From Advenella incenata (GTDB lineage Bacteria; Pseudomonadota; Gammaproteobacteria; Burkholderiales; Burkholderiaceae_B): a DNA stretch of 64,000 nt. The DNA lies in assembly GCF_004217095.1 (NCBI RefSeq), contig NZ_SHKO01000003.1:124001-188000 (forward strand). The letters are read 5' to 3'. This document shows, in pieces, positions 54,511 to 60,726 of this stretch; the first letter of the stretch is position 1; the number at the start of each line of letters is the position of its first letter. The position numbers and the translations under genes were made by a program. Below the pieces are notes generated by a model. That model searched no databases. It worked only from the letters and a program-made list of their open reading frames with translations, and had not been told where the DNA came from.

Positions 54511-54939
54511 TTAATGCCTGGTTGAATGCTGGCGCAGCAGTTCCAGGTAATGGTCGGTGTCCAGCGGTTTGCCCAGTCGCTGTGATTCCCAGATAACCTG
54601 GCCCAGGCACTCCATGATTTCGTGCATAGCGTGATGTTCGTCGCTGCGGGCAGCCAATTGCTCATAGATGCCGCGAATGCCTGGCGGGTGGTCGATAGAT
54701 ACTTGTTCGTTGATGGCCAGATGCATGGACAAATGCAAAAACGGATTGACCTGTCCTTTTTCTACCGAGAATTCCTGCAGAGCTGCATCCGGATTCTCCA
54801 GTGCAGGGTGATACTCTGGGTGTTGCAAAATCCAGGTCAGAGCCATGGACTCCATGGGCGTGAGAATTTTATTCTGACGATGTTTGGCCCAGGTTTCCGT
54901 AAAAAACTGGCGAACCTGATCGCGGGATGGATTGAACAT
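54511..54939 (-). CDS. DUF1841-family protein
   Basis: 142 residues, predicted soluble and helical. Characteristic DUF1841 segments: MFNPSRDQVRQFFTETWAKH, LTPMESMALTWILQHPEYH, NPFLHLSMHLAINEQVSID, and HHAMHEIMECLGQVIWESQR. The several conserved His residues hint at metal binding but no function is known. The gene stands alone, divergent from the NRPS gene. Confidence 0.85.
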   Translation of the reverse strand: MFNPSRDQVRQFFTETWAKHRQNKILTPMESMALTWILQHPEYHPALENPDAALQEFSVEKGQVNPFLHLSMHLAINEQVSIDHPPGIRGIYEQLAARSDEHHAMHEIMECLGQVIWESQRLGKPLDTDHYLELLRQHSTRH

Positions 54940-55194
54940 AAAAAGAGGGCAATTAAAACCGGCGTCGTGCGATCGCGCGGGGACATGAAAAAAAACACGA
55001 TGAAACAGATAGAAACAGGTAGCGGGCGCCGCCTGAATATTCGGGCCACTTATTAAGTGCCCCGTCAGTTCGGATTCGTCATACTTGCTGCCACTGACTG
55101 ATACCTCATCATACCACGGCCATTGCAGGGGTGCTCGCGTGACAGGATCGGTTTTTTTATGCTATCTGATTGCCCCGGGCGCAAGGAGCTACAC

Positions 55195-58100
55195 GTGTTT
55201 ACTCCCAATCTGTCGATTTTGCGTGGGCCCTGTATGCCGCAATTTTTGCGACATGAAACGCTGGCCGACATCTTTGAAACCACGGCAGCCACCTACCCAG
55301 AACATATCTGCCTTATCGACGGCTCGCAGCGGCTAACCTATCGCCAGGTAAATGACAGGGCAGATTTGATGGCCCATCATTTGTTATCCGCCGGTGTTGC
55401 ACCGGGTGATATTGTCGGCCTATGGCTGGAGCGGGGCAGCCAGTTGTTGATCGCGCAACTGGCTATTACCAAGGCGGGGGCTGCGTGGCTTCCCTTTGAT
55501 ATTGACACGCCTGCCGAGCGAGTAGCGGTCTGCCTTGAAGACGCCGATGCACGGGGTATTATTGCCGACAAGCAATATATCAATTCAGGTAAGTCGGGCA
55601 GCGACATAACGCAATGGCATCCCGGGAATCTGACTGTCAATGTCGGCCGGCACATGCTGCGACGGCAGGGTGTGCTGCCGTCCGATCCCGCGTACTTGAT
55701 CTATACGTCAGGCTCTACCGGCAAGCCCAAAGGCATTGCGATTCGTCATGAGAATATCTGCCCATTCCTGCGCAGTGAAAATCATATATTGGGGATCGCC
55801 CATTTTGACTTGGTGTATCAGGGGTTTTCTGTGGCCTTTGATATGTCGTTCGAGGAAATCTGGATTTCCTGGCTGGCCGGCGCCAGCCTCTGGATTGCGC
55901 CCAAACAGGTGGCTGCTGATCCGGTCGGGCTGCCTACAGTTTTGCAACAATCCGGTGTGACCGTATTGCACGCGGTTCCGACGCTACTGGCCATGTTTGC
56001 AGAGGTCCCGGAAAGTCTGCGGATTATCAATATGGGCGGTGAAATGTGTCCGGATGCGCTGGTGGCCAAGCTGGATAATGGCCGCATTCGCCTTTTCAAT
56101 ACGTATGGGCCGACAGAGGCGACCGTGTCTGCAACGCTCGAGCAACTGTCGATCGACAAGCCGGTGACTATTGGCACGCCTTTGCCCAATTATGGATTGG
56201 CGGTGATCGATGACCAGCAGCAACTGGTGCCTGTCAACGAGGTCGGGGAACTCTGTATTTTTGGACCTGGCGTGGCGCATGGCTATCTGGGACGTACCGA
56301 TCTGACCGCGGAGAAATTTCTTGTCAACCCTTTTGCTCAAGGGGAGCAGGAAGCGCGGCTGTATCGAACCGGTGATCTGGCGCGAATATTGCCAGGCGGA
56401 ACAATTGAGTGCCTGGGACGCGTGGACGATCAGATCAAGATCCGCGGCTTTCGCGTTGAGCTTGGTGAAATCGAAGCGGCGCTTGCAGAGCAAACGGGCG
56501 TGGCAACTGCGGCGGTCCTGGTGCGTACGATTGCGGGCGTGGACCAGTTGGTGGCATGGATTGTGGTTGATCCCGGACAGGAAAAACTATTGGCTTCGGG
56601 CGCCACCTTGCGCAATATCCTGAAAACGCGTCTGCCAGCCTACATGGTTCCCGCTTTTTTTGAATATACCGACAGCGTGCCACGTCTGGTTTCTGGCAAG
56701 ATCAATCGCCATGCGCTGGCGCAGATGCCAGTACACATCGGGCCAGATGCCGGTCTTGAGTCTGACGAACCGCAGAATGACGCGCAAAAAAACCTGTTCG
56801 ATGTATTGCGCTCGCTATTTCCCGGACAAGCAATTCGTTTGCAGGCCGATTTTTTCTCGGATATGGGCGGGCATTCCTTGCTGGCCGCGCAATTGGTATC
56901 GCTTGTTCGCAGCGTGCCCAGATATGCTGCACTGACGGTGCAGGATGTATATCAGAAGCGTACCGTGCAGGCCATCGGCGACTGTATGCAACGCGCCGAT
57001 TCGCAACAATCGGCTGCGCCAGCGCAGGCGCCATTTTCACCTGCGCCAAGCAATACCTGGCGCCGCCGGCTGGTCTGCGGCATCGCCCAGTTTGCTGCTG
57101 TGCCATTCTTGATTACGTTATCCATCATGCAGTGGCTGGCTCCCTTTTTTACTTACCATAATCTGACGGGTGAAATGTACGACAGCACCTGGTATGCCAT
57201 CGGGATGTCATTCATTGTCTTTATAGCGGTCTATCTGCTTAGTTTTGTGCTGGCAATCCTGGGCAGGCAATTGCTTACTGCGGGACTAAAACCCGGTCGT
57301 TATCCCCTTTGGGGATTCACCTTTTTTCGTTGGTGGCTGTCGGATCGGCTGGCCAATGTGGCGCCGCTTTATTTGATCGCCGGAACACGCATCTATGCTG
57401 CCTACTTACGATGCATGGGCGCACGTATCGGGCGCGAAGTCATGCTCAGTTCCATGACCGTTCGTGTGCCTTCAATGCTCACGATCGAAGAGGGCGCCAG
57501 TGTAGGTGCAGAGGTCCATATTGAAAACGCCCGGGTACAGAACGGACAACTGGTGCTGGGGAACACGCATATTGGCAAAAACGCTTATGTTGGTTCCTAC
57601 TGTGTGCTCGAAGGCAATACCGGCATTGCACAGGACGGCAGATTAAACGGCTTGTCTTCGCTTTATGACGGGCAGCAGATTGGCGCTGCCCAGGTCTGGG
57701 AGGGATCGCCTTCGCGAATGATTGCCAGCGATTATTGTTCTGCCTTGCCACCACGGCCCGCGCCTGGCCCGGGCCGGATTGCTTTTGAATGGCTTTTTTA
57801 TGCGTTGGGTAGCCTGTTCATTGCCTTGCTCTTTTTTACGCCCCTGTTTCCCACCTTCATATTCATCGACCTGCTGGATCCGAATTTTGATTATGACAAT
57901 TTCCTGTTATCGGGAATGAAATATTTCATCATTGCCATTCCGGCGTCATTCGTGCTGATTCTATTTACTGCACTGCTCTCGGCATTGGTGCGCTGGCTGG
58001 CCTTGCCCAAAATGCAGCCGGGACGGTACTCGGTGTATAGCGCGCTGTATTATCGCAAATGGCTAATCAACCAGATACAGGCGGCCAGCCTGCATACCCT

Positions 58101-59280
58101 GCATGGTGTATATGCAACGATATTCGCCTCGTCATGGTACCGCCTGCTGGGGGCACGGATCGGCAAGAATGCCGAAATTTCAACCATCATGGGGGCGGCG
58201 CCCAATATGCTTACGCTGGGCGACGATGCATTCATTGCCGATGCCGTCATGCTGGGTGACGACGAAGTGGATGGGGGCTGGATGACCATTCGCAACACCG
58301 TCATCGGCCATCGCAGCTTTATCGGCAATGGTGCCTACGTACCGGACGGGACAGTGGTCGCGCCCAATGTGCTGATTGGCGTGCAAACACGTGCACCGCA
58401 AAGCGAGCAGATGAGGCCGGGCGACACCTGGTTTGGTTCGCCACCGATCATCCTGCCTGCCCGTGAAATGATGACGCGGTTTGATGAACAGTCGACCTTT
58501 CGTCCCACCGTCGGACGTCGCCTGGGTCGTGCCTTCGTGGAATCGCTGCGCATTGTATTGCCAATGGCATTTACCATTTGCGCCGGCTACCTGATCGTTT
58601 ATGATGTGGTTCGTTACGAATCCATGGTTTCAGTCGTGCAGGCACTGCCTTCATTGATGCGCGATGGTCTTTGGTATGGTATCAGTTCCTTTGTCCTGGT
58701 CGTGTTGCTCAAATGGCTGTTGCTGCAGCGCTATCGGCCAGGCTCGGCGCCCATGTGGTCGTTGTACGTATGGGTCAGCGAGGCGGTGACGAATGTCTAT
58801 GAATCAATGGCTGTTTCCAATTTTCTCGATTATCTGCGGGGCACCGTGTTTCTGCCGCTCCTGATGCGTTTGCTGGGAGTTCATATTGGCAAGGGTGTGT
58901 ATCTGGACACCACGGATATGACGGAGTTCGATTGTGTACATATTGGCGATTATGCCGAACTTAACGGTTTGTCCGGTCCGCAAACCCATCTGTTTGAAGA
59001 TCGGGTGATGAAAATCGGGCAGGTACATATAGAGGAGGGGGTCAATCTGCGGGCGCGCACGACGATCCTGTATGGTAGTCGGGTCGGACGGGGCGCGCGG
59101 ATCGGCCCGTTGACCACCGTGATGAAGGGCGAATCGATTCCTGCCAATAGTAGTTGGATCGGCTCACCCGCACAGAATTGGCATCAATCCCAGAAGCATG
59201 CCCAGAAGCATGCAGATGACGCGGTGACAGGCGTGGCAGGCAATTGCGAGACAGATGTGCGGGCTGAAACGATGGCTTGA
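55195..59280 (+). CDS. Pls/PosA-type membrane nonribosomal peptide synthetase
   Basis: 1361 residues from GTG 55195, preferred because AAGGAG lies 6 bases upstream; TTG 55123 and ATG 55159 are weaker choices. Adenylation domain (about 20-520): YTSGSTGKPKGI near 169, NTYGPTEATVS near 305, YRTGDLARILPGG, and catalytic Lys in PRLVSGKINRHA. Carrier domain GGHSLLAAQ with pantetheine Ser561. No condensation or thioesterase domain follows. The last 740 residues hold three units, each a pair of membrane helices followed by left-handed beta-helix repeats (about 740-840, 980-1080, 1220-1330). This is the architecture of epsilon-polylysine synthetase Pls and poly-ornithine-type PosA, in which the tail makes isopeptide bonds. 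The substrate is probably a basic amino acid (inference). No phosphopantetheinyl transferase is nearby. Confidence 0.88.
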   Translation: MFTPNLSILRGPCMPQFLRHETLADIFETTAATYPEHICLIDGSQRLTYRQVNDRADLMAHHLLSAGVAPGDIVGLWLERGSQLLIAQLAITKAGAAWLPFDIDTPAERVAVCLEDADARGIIADKQYINSGKSGSDITQWHPGNLTVNVGRHMLRRQGVLPSDPAYLIYTSGSTGKPKGIAIRHENICPFLRSENHILGIAHFDLVYQGFSVAFDMSFEEIWISWLAGASLWIAPKQVAADPVGLPTVLQQSGVTVLHAVPTLLAMFAEVPESLRIINMGGEMCPDALVAKLDNGRIRLFNTYGPTEATVSATLEQLSIDKPVTIGTPLPNYGLAVIDDQQQLVPVNEVGELCIFGPGVAHGYLGRTDLTAEKFLVNPFAQGEQEARLYRTGDLARILPGGTIECLGRVDDQIKIRGFRVELGEIEAALAEQTGVATAAVLVRTIAGVDQLVAWIVVDPGQEKLLASGATLRNILKTRLPAYMVPAFFEYTDSVPRLVSGKINRHALAQMPVHIGPDAGLESDEPQNDAQKNLFDVLRSLFPGQAIRLQADFFSDMGGHSLLAAQLVSLVRSVPRYAALTVQDVYQKRTVQAIGDCMQRADSQQSAAPAQAPFSPAPSNTWRRRLVCGIAQFAAVPFLITLSIMQWLAPFFTYHNLTGEMYDSTWYAIGMSFIVFIAVYLLSFVLAILGRQLLTAGLKPGRYPLWGFTFFRWWLSDRLANVAPLYLIAGTRIYAAYLRCMGARIGREVMLSSMTVRVPSMLTIEEGASVGAEVHIENARVQNGQLVLGNTHIGKNAYVGSYCVLEGNTGIAQDGRLNGLSSLYDGQQIGAAQVWEGSPSRMIASDYCSALPPRPAPGPGRIAFEWLFYALGSLFIALLFFTPLFPTFIFIDLLDPNFDYDNFLLSGMKYFIIAIPASFVLILFTALLSALVRWLALPKMQPGRYSVYSALYYRKWLINQIQAASLHTLHGVYATIFASSWYRLLGARIGKNAEISTIMGAAPNMLTLGDDAFIADAVMLGDDEVDGGWMTIRNTVIGHRSFIGNGAYVPDGTVVAPNVLIGVQTRAPQSEQMRPGDTWFGSPPIILPAREMMTRFDEQSTFRPTVGRRLGRAFVESLRIVLPMAFTICAGYLIVYDVVRYESMVSVVQALPSLMRDGLWYGISSFVLVVLLKWLLLQRYRPGSAPMWSLYVWVSEAVTNVYESMAVSNFLDYLRGTVFLPLLMRLLGVHIGKGVYLDTTDMTEFDCVHIGDYAELNGLSGPQTHLFEDRVMKIGQVHIEEGVNLRARTTILYGSRVGRGARIGPLTTVMKGESIPANSSWIGSPAQNWHQSQKHAQKHADDAVTGVAGNCETDVRAETMA

Positions 59281-59401
59281 CGCGCTGTCTGCCTGTTCAC
59301 AAAAGACCGCAAGGAAGCGGGCACGGCCTGTGCTTACCATATTTTGTTTGGATATGGGGGATTCCCACCGCAAAACAGCCGTTTTTCAGTTAAACTAATA
59401 T

Positions 59402-59415: not shown

Positions 59416-59469
59416 TCGTTTATCCAACGATTGTCTTCATGTTTTTTACTTGTGGGTTACGGAGCCAGC

Positions 59470-60726
59470 ATGTCTTACCAGCACATTAAAGTCCCTTCAT
59501 CGGGCGAAAAAATCACGGTCAACGCCGACTTTTCTCTGAATGTCCCTGACCAGCCGATCATCCCATTCATCGAAGGCGACGGCACTGGTGCCGATATCAC
59601 GCCTGTGATGCTCAAGGTTGTGGACGCTGCGGTCGAAAAAGCTTACAGCGGTAAACGCAAAATCCACTGGATGGAAATCTACGCTGGTGAGAAATCCACA
59701 AAAGTATATGGCTCAGACGTCTGGCTGCCTGAAGAAACACTGGAAGCGGTCAAGGATTACGTGGTTTCCATTAAGGGTCCGCTGACTACGCCTGTTGGCG
59801 GCGGTATCCGTTCGCTGAACGTGGCGCTGCGCCAGCAGCTGGATCTGTATGTCTGCCTGCGTCCGGTACGCTACTTCAAGGGTGTCCCTTCACCTGTACG
59901 TGAGCCGGAAAAAACCGATATGGTTATTTTCCGTGAGAACTCCGAAGACATCTATGCCGGTATCGAATTCGAAGCAGAATCTGACCAGGCCAAGAAACTA
60001 ATAGCGTTCCTGCAGAACGAACTGGGCGTCAAGAAAATCCGTTTCCCCCAGACTTCCGGTATCGGTGTGAAGCCCGTATCACGAGAAGGCACTGAGCGCC
60101 TGGTGCGCAAGGCTATCCAGTACGCGATCGACAATGACAAGCCAAGCGTGACCATTGTTCACAAAGGCAACATCATGAAGTTCACCGAAGGTGGCTTCCG
60201 TGACTGGGCCTACGAACTGGCACAGAAAGAATTCGGCGCCGAGCTGATCGATGGCGGCCCATGGAGCAAAATCAAGAATCCACGCACAGGCAAAGAAATC
60301 ATCATCAAGGATTCCATCGCCGACGCCTTCCTGCAACAAATCCTGTTGCGTCCGGCCGAGTACTCTGTGATCGCCACATTGAACCTTAACGGCGACTACG
60401 TGTCCGACGCGCTGGCCGCCCAGGTGGGTGGTATTGGTATCGCTCCTGGCGCCAACCTGTCCGACTCCGTTGCCATGTTTGAAGCAACCCACGGCACAGC
60501 GCCCAAATATGCTGGCAAGGACTACGTGAACCCAGGTTCAGAGATCCTGTCTGCAGAAATGATGCTGCGTCACATGGGCTGGACTGAAGCGGCTGATCTG
60601 ATCATCTCTTCAATGGAAAAATCCATTCTGTCCAAAAAAGTCACTTATGACTTTGCCCGTCTGCTCGAAGGCGCAACGCAAGTGAGCTGCTCCGGCTTTG
60701 GCCAGGTCATGATCGAAAATATGTAA
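59470..60726 (+). CDS. icd: Isocitrate dehydrogenase (NADP+)
   Basis: 418 residues from ATG 59470 with GGAG six bases upstream; the 13-codon in-frame extension is rejected. Substrate Ser region is [21 protein letters not shown] (Ser and Arg residues near 110-120), [26 protein letters not shown], and the metal Asp segment [18 protein letters not shown] with the NADP loop [11 protein letters not shown]. It oxidises isocitrate to 2-oxoglutarate in the TCA cycle. A palindrome in its promoter suggests specific control. Confidence 0.97.

Follow-up and report, generated by a model that had tools for sequence, protein, structure and literature searches.

Results and Discussion

A Pls/PosA-type synthetase gene in Advenella incenata

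A 64,000-nucleotide stretch of Advenella incenata DNA (positions 124,001 to 188,000 of contig NZ_SHKO01000003.1; hereafter the window) carries at 55195..59280 a gene that very probably encodes an ortholog of Acinetobacter baumannii PosA, that is, a single-module, membrane-bound enzyme of the nonribosomal peptide synthetase (NRPS) type predicted to make delta-poly-L-ornithine. The gene and its parts are as follows; residue numbers refer to translation P0001, which begins at 55231, and adding 12 gives the numbering from the GTG start.

55195..59280, forward strand: posA-type gene, predicted delta-poly-L-ornithine synthetase, single-module NRPS of the Pls/PosA family; alternative start ATG 55234
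55258..56724, forward strand: adenylation domain, core and C-terminal subdomain (PF00501, PF13193; 484.7 bits to 8G95/8G96, 275.7 to 7WEW)
55840..56130, forward strand: pocket stretch by alignment, D204 M205 E208 H247 N267 G269 T291 V299 S300; tenth residue K490 at 56698-56700
56773..57000, forward strand: carrier (PCP) domain, approximate borders (PF00550); phosphopantetheine Ser549 at 56875-56877
57028..57774, forward strand: C-terminal unit 1, helix pair ~614-639 and 659-677 and left-handed beta-helix part (hydropathy, hhalign, TIGR02353); borders chosen by us
57775..58500, forward strand: C-terminal unit 2, helix pair ~861-879 and 899-917 and left-handed beta-helix part (Hexapep, hydropathy, hhalign)
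58501..59166, forward strand: C-terminal unit 3, helix pair ~1101-1126 and 1147-1165 and left-handed beta-helix part (hydropathy, hhalign, conservation)
58981..59013, forward strand: QTHLFEDRVMK (residues 1251-1261) in unit 3, a candidate for the catalytic or acceptor-binding site (conservation)

The open frame spans TTG 55123 to 59280, with the stop codon at 59278-59280, and the gene is intact over 1361 codons. GTG 55195 is preceded by AAGGAG, and the same GTG is found in the copy of a second Advenella genome (G134); ATG 55234 is the other candidate start, and most homolog matches begin at query residues 2-4, at or just after it.

The protein matches the NCBIfam model TIGR02353 ("Pls/PosA family NRPS") with 689.2 bits against a cut-off of 423.1, over model positions 2-695 of 695 (A. 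baumannii PosA itself scores 725.2), and TIGR01733 with 402 bits, among the 25 of 120 NCBIfam families listed for it. Pfam (E up to 0.001) recognizes AMP-binding (255 bits), AMP-binding_C, a carrier domain that barely passes its threshold (21.4 bits, cut-off 20.8), and the hexapeptide repeat; neither a condensation nor a thioesterase domain is among the six Pfam families of the protein. The carrier Ser549 (561 from the GTG) is identical in all 85 aligned sequences, the window's included. A first-pass annotation of this DNA had read from the letters one adenylation domain, one carrier with Ser561, no condensation or thioesterase domain, and three membrane/left-handed-helix units in the manner of Pls/PosA enzymes, and the Pfam and NCBIfam domains, together with TIGR02353, agree with that architecture; the adenylation core on which it depends is intact.

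The adenylation pocket is that of PosA

The specificity pocket, D-M-E-H-N-G-T-V-S-K, is identical to that of A. baumannii PosA at 10 of 10 positions when the full A. baumannii protein is aligned; alignment to the PosA crystal sequence, using a numbering offset of 2 derived from the residue numbers printed in PMC10522769, covers nine of the ten, all agreeing. The pocket letters proposed earlier by eye (D, M, E, H, N, G, T, V, S, with Lys) are thereby upheld, and the suggestion of a basic diamino acid as substrate gains support, since the pocket is the same as in the ornithine-preferring PosA. For this pocket, printed there as D M E H N G T V S K, PMC10522769 describes crystal structures, mutants, and an in vitro product: PosA favors L-ornithine more than 160-fold over L-lysine and acts weakly on further basic amino acids. 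The enzyme cannot do without Asp217 and Glu221; Thr304 and Ser313 are also important, and discrimination against lysine by chain length is tuned by Met218. Each of these five residues has a counterpart in the window protein.

Comparisons of whole domains point the same way: i) phmmer with residues 1-553 gives 484.7 bits for the PosA entries and 275.7 for the Pls entry, the 582 bits of linear gramicidin synthetase being the sum of two domains of ~290 each; ii) over the pocket stretch, PosA scores 193.6 bits and Pls 94.8; iii) the adenylation core is 58.1% identical to A. baumannii but 38.2-38.8% identical to four actinobacterial members; and iv) the C-terminal part is 50.6% identical to A. baumannii, as against 22.5-35.2% for the same four. 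Overall, A. baumannii records align to the Advenella protein at ~52% identity, with 97% of the query covered. The protein shares with PosA (PMC10522769; 8G95-8G98) the order A-PCP-three units, the ten-letter pocket, and a stand-alone gene; the two differ in host lineage and neighboring genes, and the Advenella enzyme is known here from its sequence.

Three homologous C-terminal units, with polar conservation in the third

Hydropathy places six hydrophobic helices in three pairs (overlapping segments merged), and because units 1, 2, and 3 align mutually by profile (hhalign probabilities of 99.9% for 1/2, 99.8% for 1/3, and 99.2% for 2/3) the C-terminal region is an ancient triplication. The published model of PosA has three units arranged in this way (PMC10522769), and the three units of the first reading stand as homologous copies. 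A sequence search found no solved structure covering the C-terminal part, the matches being short stretches of beta-helix proteins, gamma-carbonic anhydrases, and LpxA-type acyltransferases (best E 1.6e-5).

Of the polar residues kept in at least 97% of the 85 rows, two lie in unit 1 (245 positions), four in unit 2 (235), and 12 in unit 3 (241). Unit 3 is exceptional for polar residues only, since counting all residue types gives 11, 17, and 19 for units 1, 2, and 3, and unit 2 has the highest mean identity (0.534 vs 0.512). Q1251, H1253, E1256, and K1261 are invariant, both in 85 of 85 rows and in a wider set of 22 rows that includes the four actinobacterial members. Within unit 3 the 22 rows also agree at E1184, T1205, E1232, Y1281, K1299, and E1301, and vary at R1100, T1231, D1234, and D1257; elsewhere D1004 and N1033 (unit 2) and R700 (unit 1) are unchanged in all 22. 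At the place aligned by profile to the unit 3 motif, units 1 and 2 lack the His/Glu/Lys set.

Because near-invariant polar residues concentrate there, unit 3 is our predicted site of bond formation. A broader proposal for the whole family, which we put forward tentatively and think somewhat less probable than its opposite, is that the isopeptide bond would be made in unit 3 around Gln-x-His-x-x-Glu-Asp-x-x-x-Lys and Glu1232, that units 1 and 2 would serve as scaffold and membrane channel, that an acyltransferase-type beta-helix would replace the condensation domain, and that many betaproteobacterial relatives would bring a 4′-phosphopantetheinyl transferase (PPTase) of their own. To go by its title as cited in two reviews, a 2013 study by Kito reportedly examined mutants of all three domains of Pls; it may support or contradict unit 3 as the reaction site, and part of the idea may already be known.

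Distribution and phylogeny

TIGR02353 is passed in 29 of 250 genomes drawn from the window's family; matches at E 1e-100 or better occur in 17 of 399 genomes of an order draw and in 27 of 398 of a phylum draw, 26 of the latter also passing the TIGR02353 cut-off (the window's own genome is counted in all three draws). One of the copies in the family draw, that of genome G243, is split across two contigs. A scan of named genomes kept the best 80 of 421 related stretches, so the resulting list leans to close relatives; the closest among those 80 is Advenella kashmirensis W13003, 81% identical. In plasmid records we found 536 with a match, 21 of them covering at least 80% of the query, the remainder probably being for the most part adenylation domains alone. 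Three A. baumannii records of chromosome-like size (NZ_CP104448.1, NZ_CP077849.1, and NZ_CP064203.1; 3.7-4.1 Mb) are filed in the plasmid collection, and counts of plasmid-borne synthetase genes are inflated on that account.

The exact pocket DMEHNGTVSK was read in 131 of 167 rows (166 relatives and the window), a set that was not dereplicated and holds some genes via several loci (L079 and L177 are apparently one gene), with part or all of the pocket missing in seven rows. A FastTree phylogeny was built on 1195 columns, the pocket columns among them, from 120 rows left after removal of short rows and rows more than 95% alike; its supports are local, and its long branches, L063 and L064 included, call for caution. 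The window falls in a 98-row clade (support 100), of which, counted from the printed tree, 92 rows have the exact pocket and six a single Ser/Thr exchange; the Acinetobacter rows and the window share a 44-row subclade (support 99), A. baumannii PosA itself not being in the tree. Among the 22 rows outside the clade, 21 carry a different pocket or an incomplete one (DLED.. and DFEALGTVTK among them), and the match between pocket and clade is imperfect because the remaining one, L063, reads DMEHNGTVTK. Members with DLED..GTV/GSVVK pockets (Azospirillum thermophilum L195; L065-L077) belong to the same family and have the same architecture, but differ in pocket and clade. Members from the window's family (group f1) occupy at least three places in the tree (Advenella; g4 and g37; g31, g34, and g41), which suggests several arrivals of the gene in that family.

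Two divergent relatives are of separate interest. The readable part of the L053 pocket, SVSVVNK, is similar to the last letters of DGESISVVNK, the code given for epsilon-poly-beta-lysine in PMC10522769; the first three pocket letters of L053 itself lie outside the aligned stretch. On Rhodococcus erythropolis plasmid pLRE138 (L193, 8014-9986), a synthetase gene whose pocket reads DFEYLGTVTK shares a few bases with a gene annotated as a BPL-N domain protein, which is followed by a gene with a heparan-alpha-glucosaminide N-acetyltransferase domain; these neighbors perhaps serve to tailor the polymer.

A phosphopantetheinyl transferase gene beside many relatives

Clustering of flanking genes returned one recurrent neighbor, mostly on the 3′ side and on the same strand. 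Three examples match the 4′-phosphopantetheinyl transferase superfamily of Pfam (two over the cut-off, one at 23.0 vs 25), and one of them weakly matches NCBIfam PPTase models, far below their cut-offs. With a profile made from this neighbor we searched 94 loci that have a long synthetase frame (the best 80 of the named-genome scan and 14 others). Of the 91 with enough flank, 48 have a PPTase gene next to the synthetase, lying directly downstream in 44 (-24 to 147 nt), overlapping the synthetase end by 36-60 bases in L088, L111, and L135 (all three included in the 48), and lying directly upstream in L118. The profile was built from some of the counted loci, which are themselves not independent: Janthinobacterium and Undibacterium contribute many, and one Advenella genome enters twice. 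In open-licence PMC literature we found nothing on this linkage, which may be published elsewhere. Other recurring neighbors, namely LysR regulators, an anaerobic ribonucleotide reductase (Janthinobacterium), and GGDEF/EAL-like proteins, look scattered or lineage-specific; the LysR and GGDEF/EAL-like ones were named by eye.

The same profile search found no PPTase neighbor in any of the seven Acinetobacter loci among the best 80 of 421, nor in the three Advenella loci; in genus g4, six of the seven fetched loci have no adjoining PPTase and one (L187, genome G199) has it downstream of the synthetase. Within the 64 kb window the profile has no match in any frame of at least 60 amino acids. The statement in the first-pass annotation that the gene stands alone is accordingly true of the window, at least as regards a PPTase, but does not extend to many of its relatives, as the survey of homolog neighborhoods called for there makes plain. 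For PosA, PMC10522769 describes a single-gene operon and treatment of the enzyme with Sfp. Three ACPS-superfamily matches over the cut-off occur elsewhere in the window's genome (L159, a 160-codon frame; L160, 305 codons; L161, 247 codons), of which the partner profile matches only L160 (38.4 bits). About 4 kb from L161, on contig C1 of the same genome (851024-862375), lie three adenylation-domain matches at 855252, 858361, and 861380, a second nonribosomal system, possibly for a siderophore.

The chromosomal site in Advenella

The direct neighbors of the synthetase gene, which border the site and lie outside the system, are:

54511..54939, reverse strand: DUF1841 gene (PF08897), left border
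59431..60726, forward strand: isocitrate dehydrogenase gene, icd (PF00180), right border

A promoter scan was uninformative (4 found vs 3.8 expected); terminator-like sites number 12 against 5.0 expected, one of them, a consensus match only, lying 3′ of the gene at 59319-59335.

In the family draw the gene is present in 3 of 10 Advenella genomes. An icd match was found in nine of the ten, the tenth being G189, in about 330 contigs. All three carriers hold the gene at one site, between the same two genes: the DUF1841-icd distance is 4451-4498 bp in the window, G115, and G134, and 169-416 bp in the other six. Identity of the flanks to those of the window is 94.7% in G071, 93.4% in G178, 89.9% in the carrier G134, and 85.9% in the carrier G115, and no fewer than three switches between presence and absence, whatever their direction, are required on the flank tree, with the forks among the nearest four genomes unsettled. 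Patchy presence at a fixed site is compatible with repeated loss, and we read it as one arrival before the large-genome species split, followed by losses, bearing in mind that parsimony does not separate gain from loss. The gene diverges more than its flanks (75.2% vs 85.9% identity in G115, 83.0% vs 89.9% in G134); a faster-evolving gene would give this gap, recombination being the alternative. Cargo of a mobile element was set aside, given the same two borders in three carriers and empty sites of 169-416 bp, although no dedicated search for mobile elements was made; loss fits at least as well, because the flanking genes are the same and the empty intergenic gaps are short.

Proposed mechanism and alternatives

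If the gene product is a PosA ortholog, its adenylation domain would activate L-ornithine with ATP, as the identity of the pocket with that of PosA suggests, and the ornithyl group would be loaded onto a phosphopantetheine arm on the observed Ser549, with a PPTase from another part of the genome providing the arm (any one of the three matches being a candidate). In Pls, which works iteratively, each monomer is adenylated and loaded onto the carrier; the growing chain acts as acceptor while free to diffuse and is at no point covalently attached (PMC9205021). By extension from work on Pls and PosA, the C-terminal membrane domain would hold the free growing oligomer as acceptor, and the side-chain amine of the oligomer would be joined, again and again, to carrier-bound ornithine, perhaps in the third unit with its concentrated polar residues. 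The product would be a short polycation: PosA makes delta-linked chains of 7-12 residues in vitro, and a chemically synthesized 12-mer of delta-poly-L-ornithine inhibits yeasts at 0.15-0.30 g/L (PMC10522769). On the strength of orthology we carry the properties of the PosA product over to the Advenella enzyme; antagonism toward fungi or loosening of biofilms by such a product would be guesses by analogy.

Several observations weigh against this reading. Six of the nine Advenella genomes that have the site are without the gene; we recognized neither of the two direct neighbors as serving to supply, export, or degrade the product, so the neighborhood lends no independent support; a pocket code is not always decisive for the substrate, and L063, with its near-identical code, falls outside the clade; loss of posA in A. 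baumannii raises biofilm only slightly (PMC10522769); and, the reading being a prediction from sequence, activity and product are extrapolated from PosA.

These points leave room for three alternatives. Polymerization of lysine or diaminobutyrate, by an epsilon-polylysine-like or poly-diaminobutyrate synthetase, would be compatible with membership in the Pls/PosA family, and the pocket Glu alone does not name ornithine, since it is present in 21 of 22 rows of various pockets (a gap in the other); the epsilon-poly-L-lysine synthetase Pls of Streptomyces albulus (7WEW) shares family and domain order, and the actinomycete poly-diaminobutyrate and poly-diaminopropionate (PDAB/PDAP) synthetases share the domain order and the pocket Asp and Glu. 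At the second pocket position, however, the lysine enzymes have Ala and the diaminobutyrate/diaminopropionate enzymes Phe (PMC10522769), and the window protein has Met205; the Pls adenylation domain is also more distant, and in the one likely PDAB case examined, a Streptomyces member with the pocket DFECLSAVTK, supply genes adjoin the synthetase (annotated as diaminobutyrate--2-oxoglutarate transaminase and aspartate kinase). Met205 disfavors either as the main substrate, and we consider this alternative improbable.

The absence of the gene from six of the nine Advenella genomes that have the site, and of a PPTase beside the window copy, would also fit a decaying or silent remnant without a working product; yet the frame is intact over its full length, the pocket, carrier Ser, and unit 3 invariants are kept, and the C-terminal part is 91.2% identical in protein sequence to that of the G134 copy (L178), which makes decay very improbable. 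Transfer of ornithine, or another amino acid, to a lipid, sugar, or protein acceptor rather than to a growing homopolymer would accord with the short resemblances of the C-terminal units to gamma-carbonic anhydrases and LpxA-type acyltransferases and with the weak phenotype of posA loss; but full-length PosA yields delta-poly-L-ornithine in vitro from L-ornithine, the passages of PMC10522769 drawn on here naming no other acceptor, and the window C-terminal part combines its 50.6% identity to A. baumannii with the invariant residues, so that we give this possibility the least credence of all. We conclude that the Advenella protein is most probably a PosA-type delta-poly-L-ornithine synthetase.

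Significance

The activity would not be new for Gram-negative bacteria, and we rejected the idea of novelty in that respect: a 2023 paper on Acinetobacter (PMC10522769) had described a PosA-kind enzyme that has the same pocket, PosA is part of the name of the NCBI family, and the same pocket occurs in many Burkholderiales genera. We found no reports on Advenella nonribosomal peptide synthetases, and none on a "PosA family" nonribosomal peptide synthetase, in open-licence PMC literature, and such reports may be published elsewhere; the main text of PMC10522769 does not name the genera that we looked for.

If our reading is correct, delta-poly-L-ornithine would not be confined to Acinetobacter, since the PosA pocket is found in enzymes scattered over the Burkholderiales. 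Advenella, in which some genomes carry the gene and others naturally lack it at one and the same site, would be convenient for learning the role of the polymer; the linked PPTase of many relatives would be a practical marker; and the concentration of conserved residues in unit 3 would provide a short list for finding the polymerization site, which the PosA paper leaves open.

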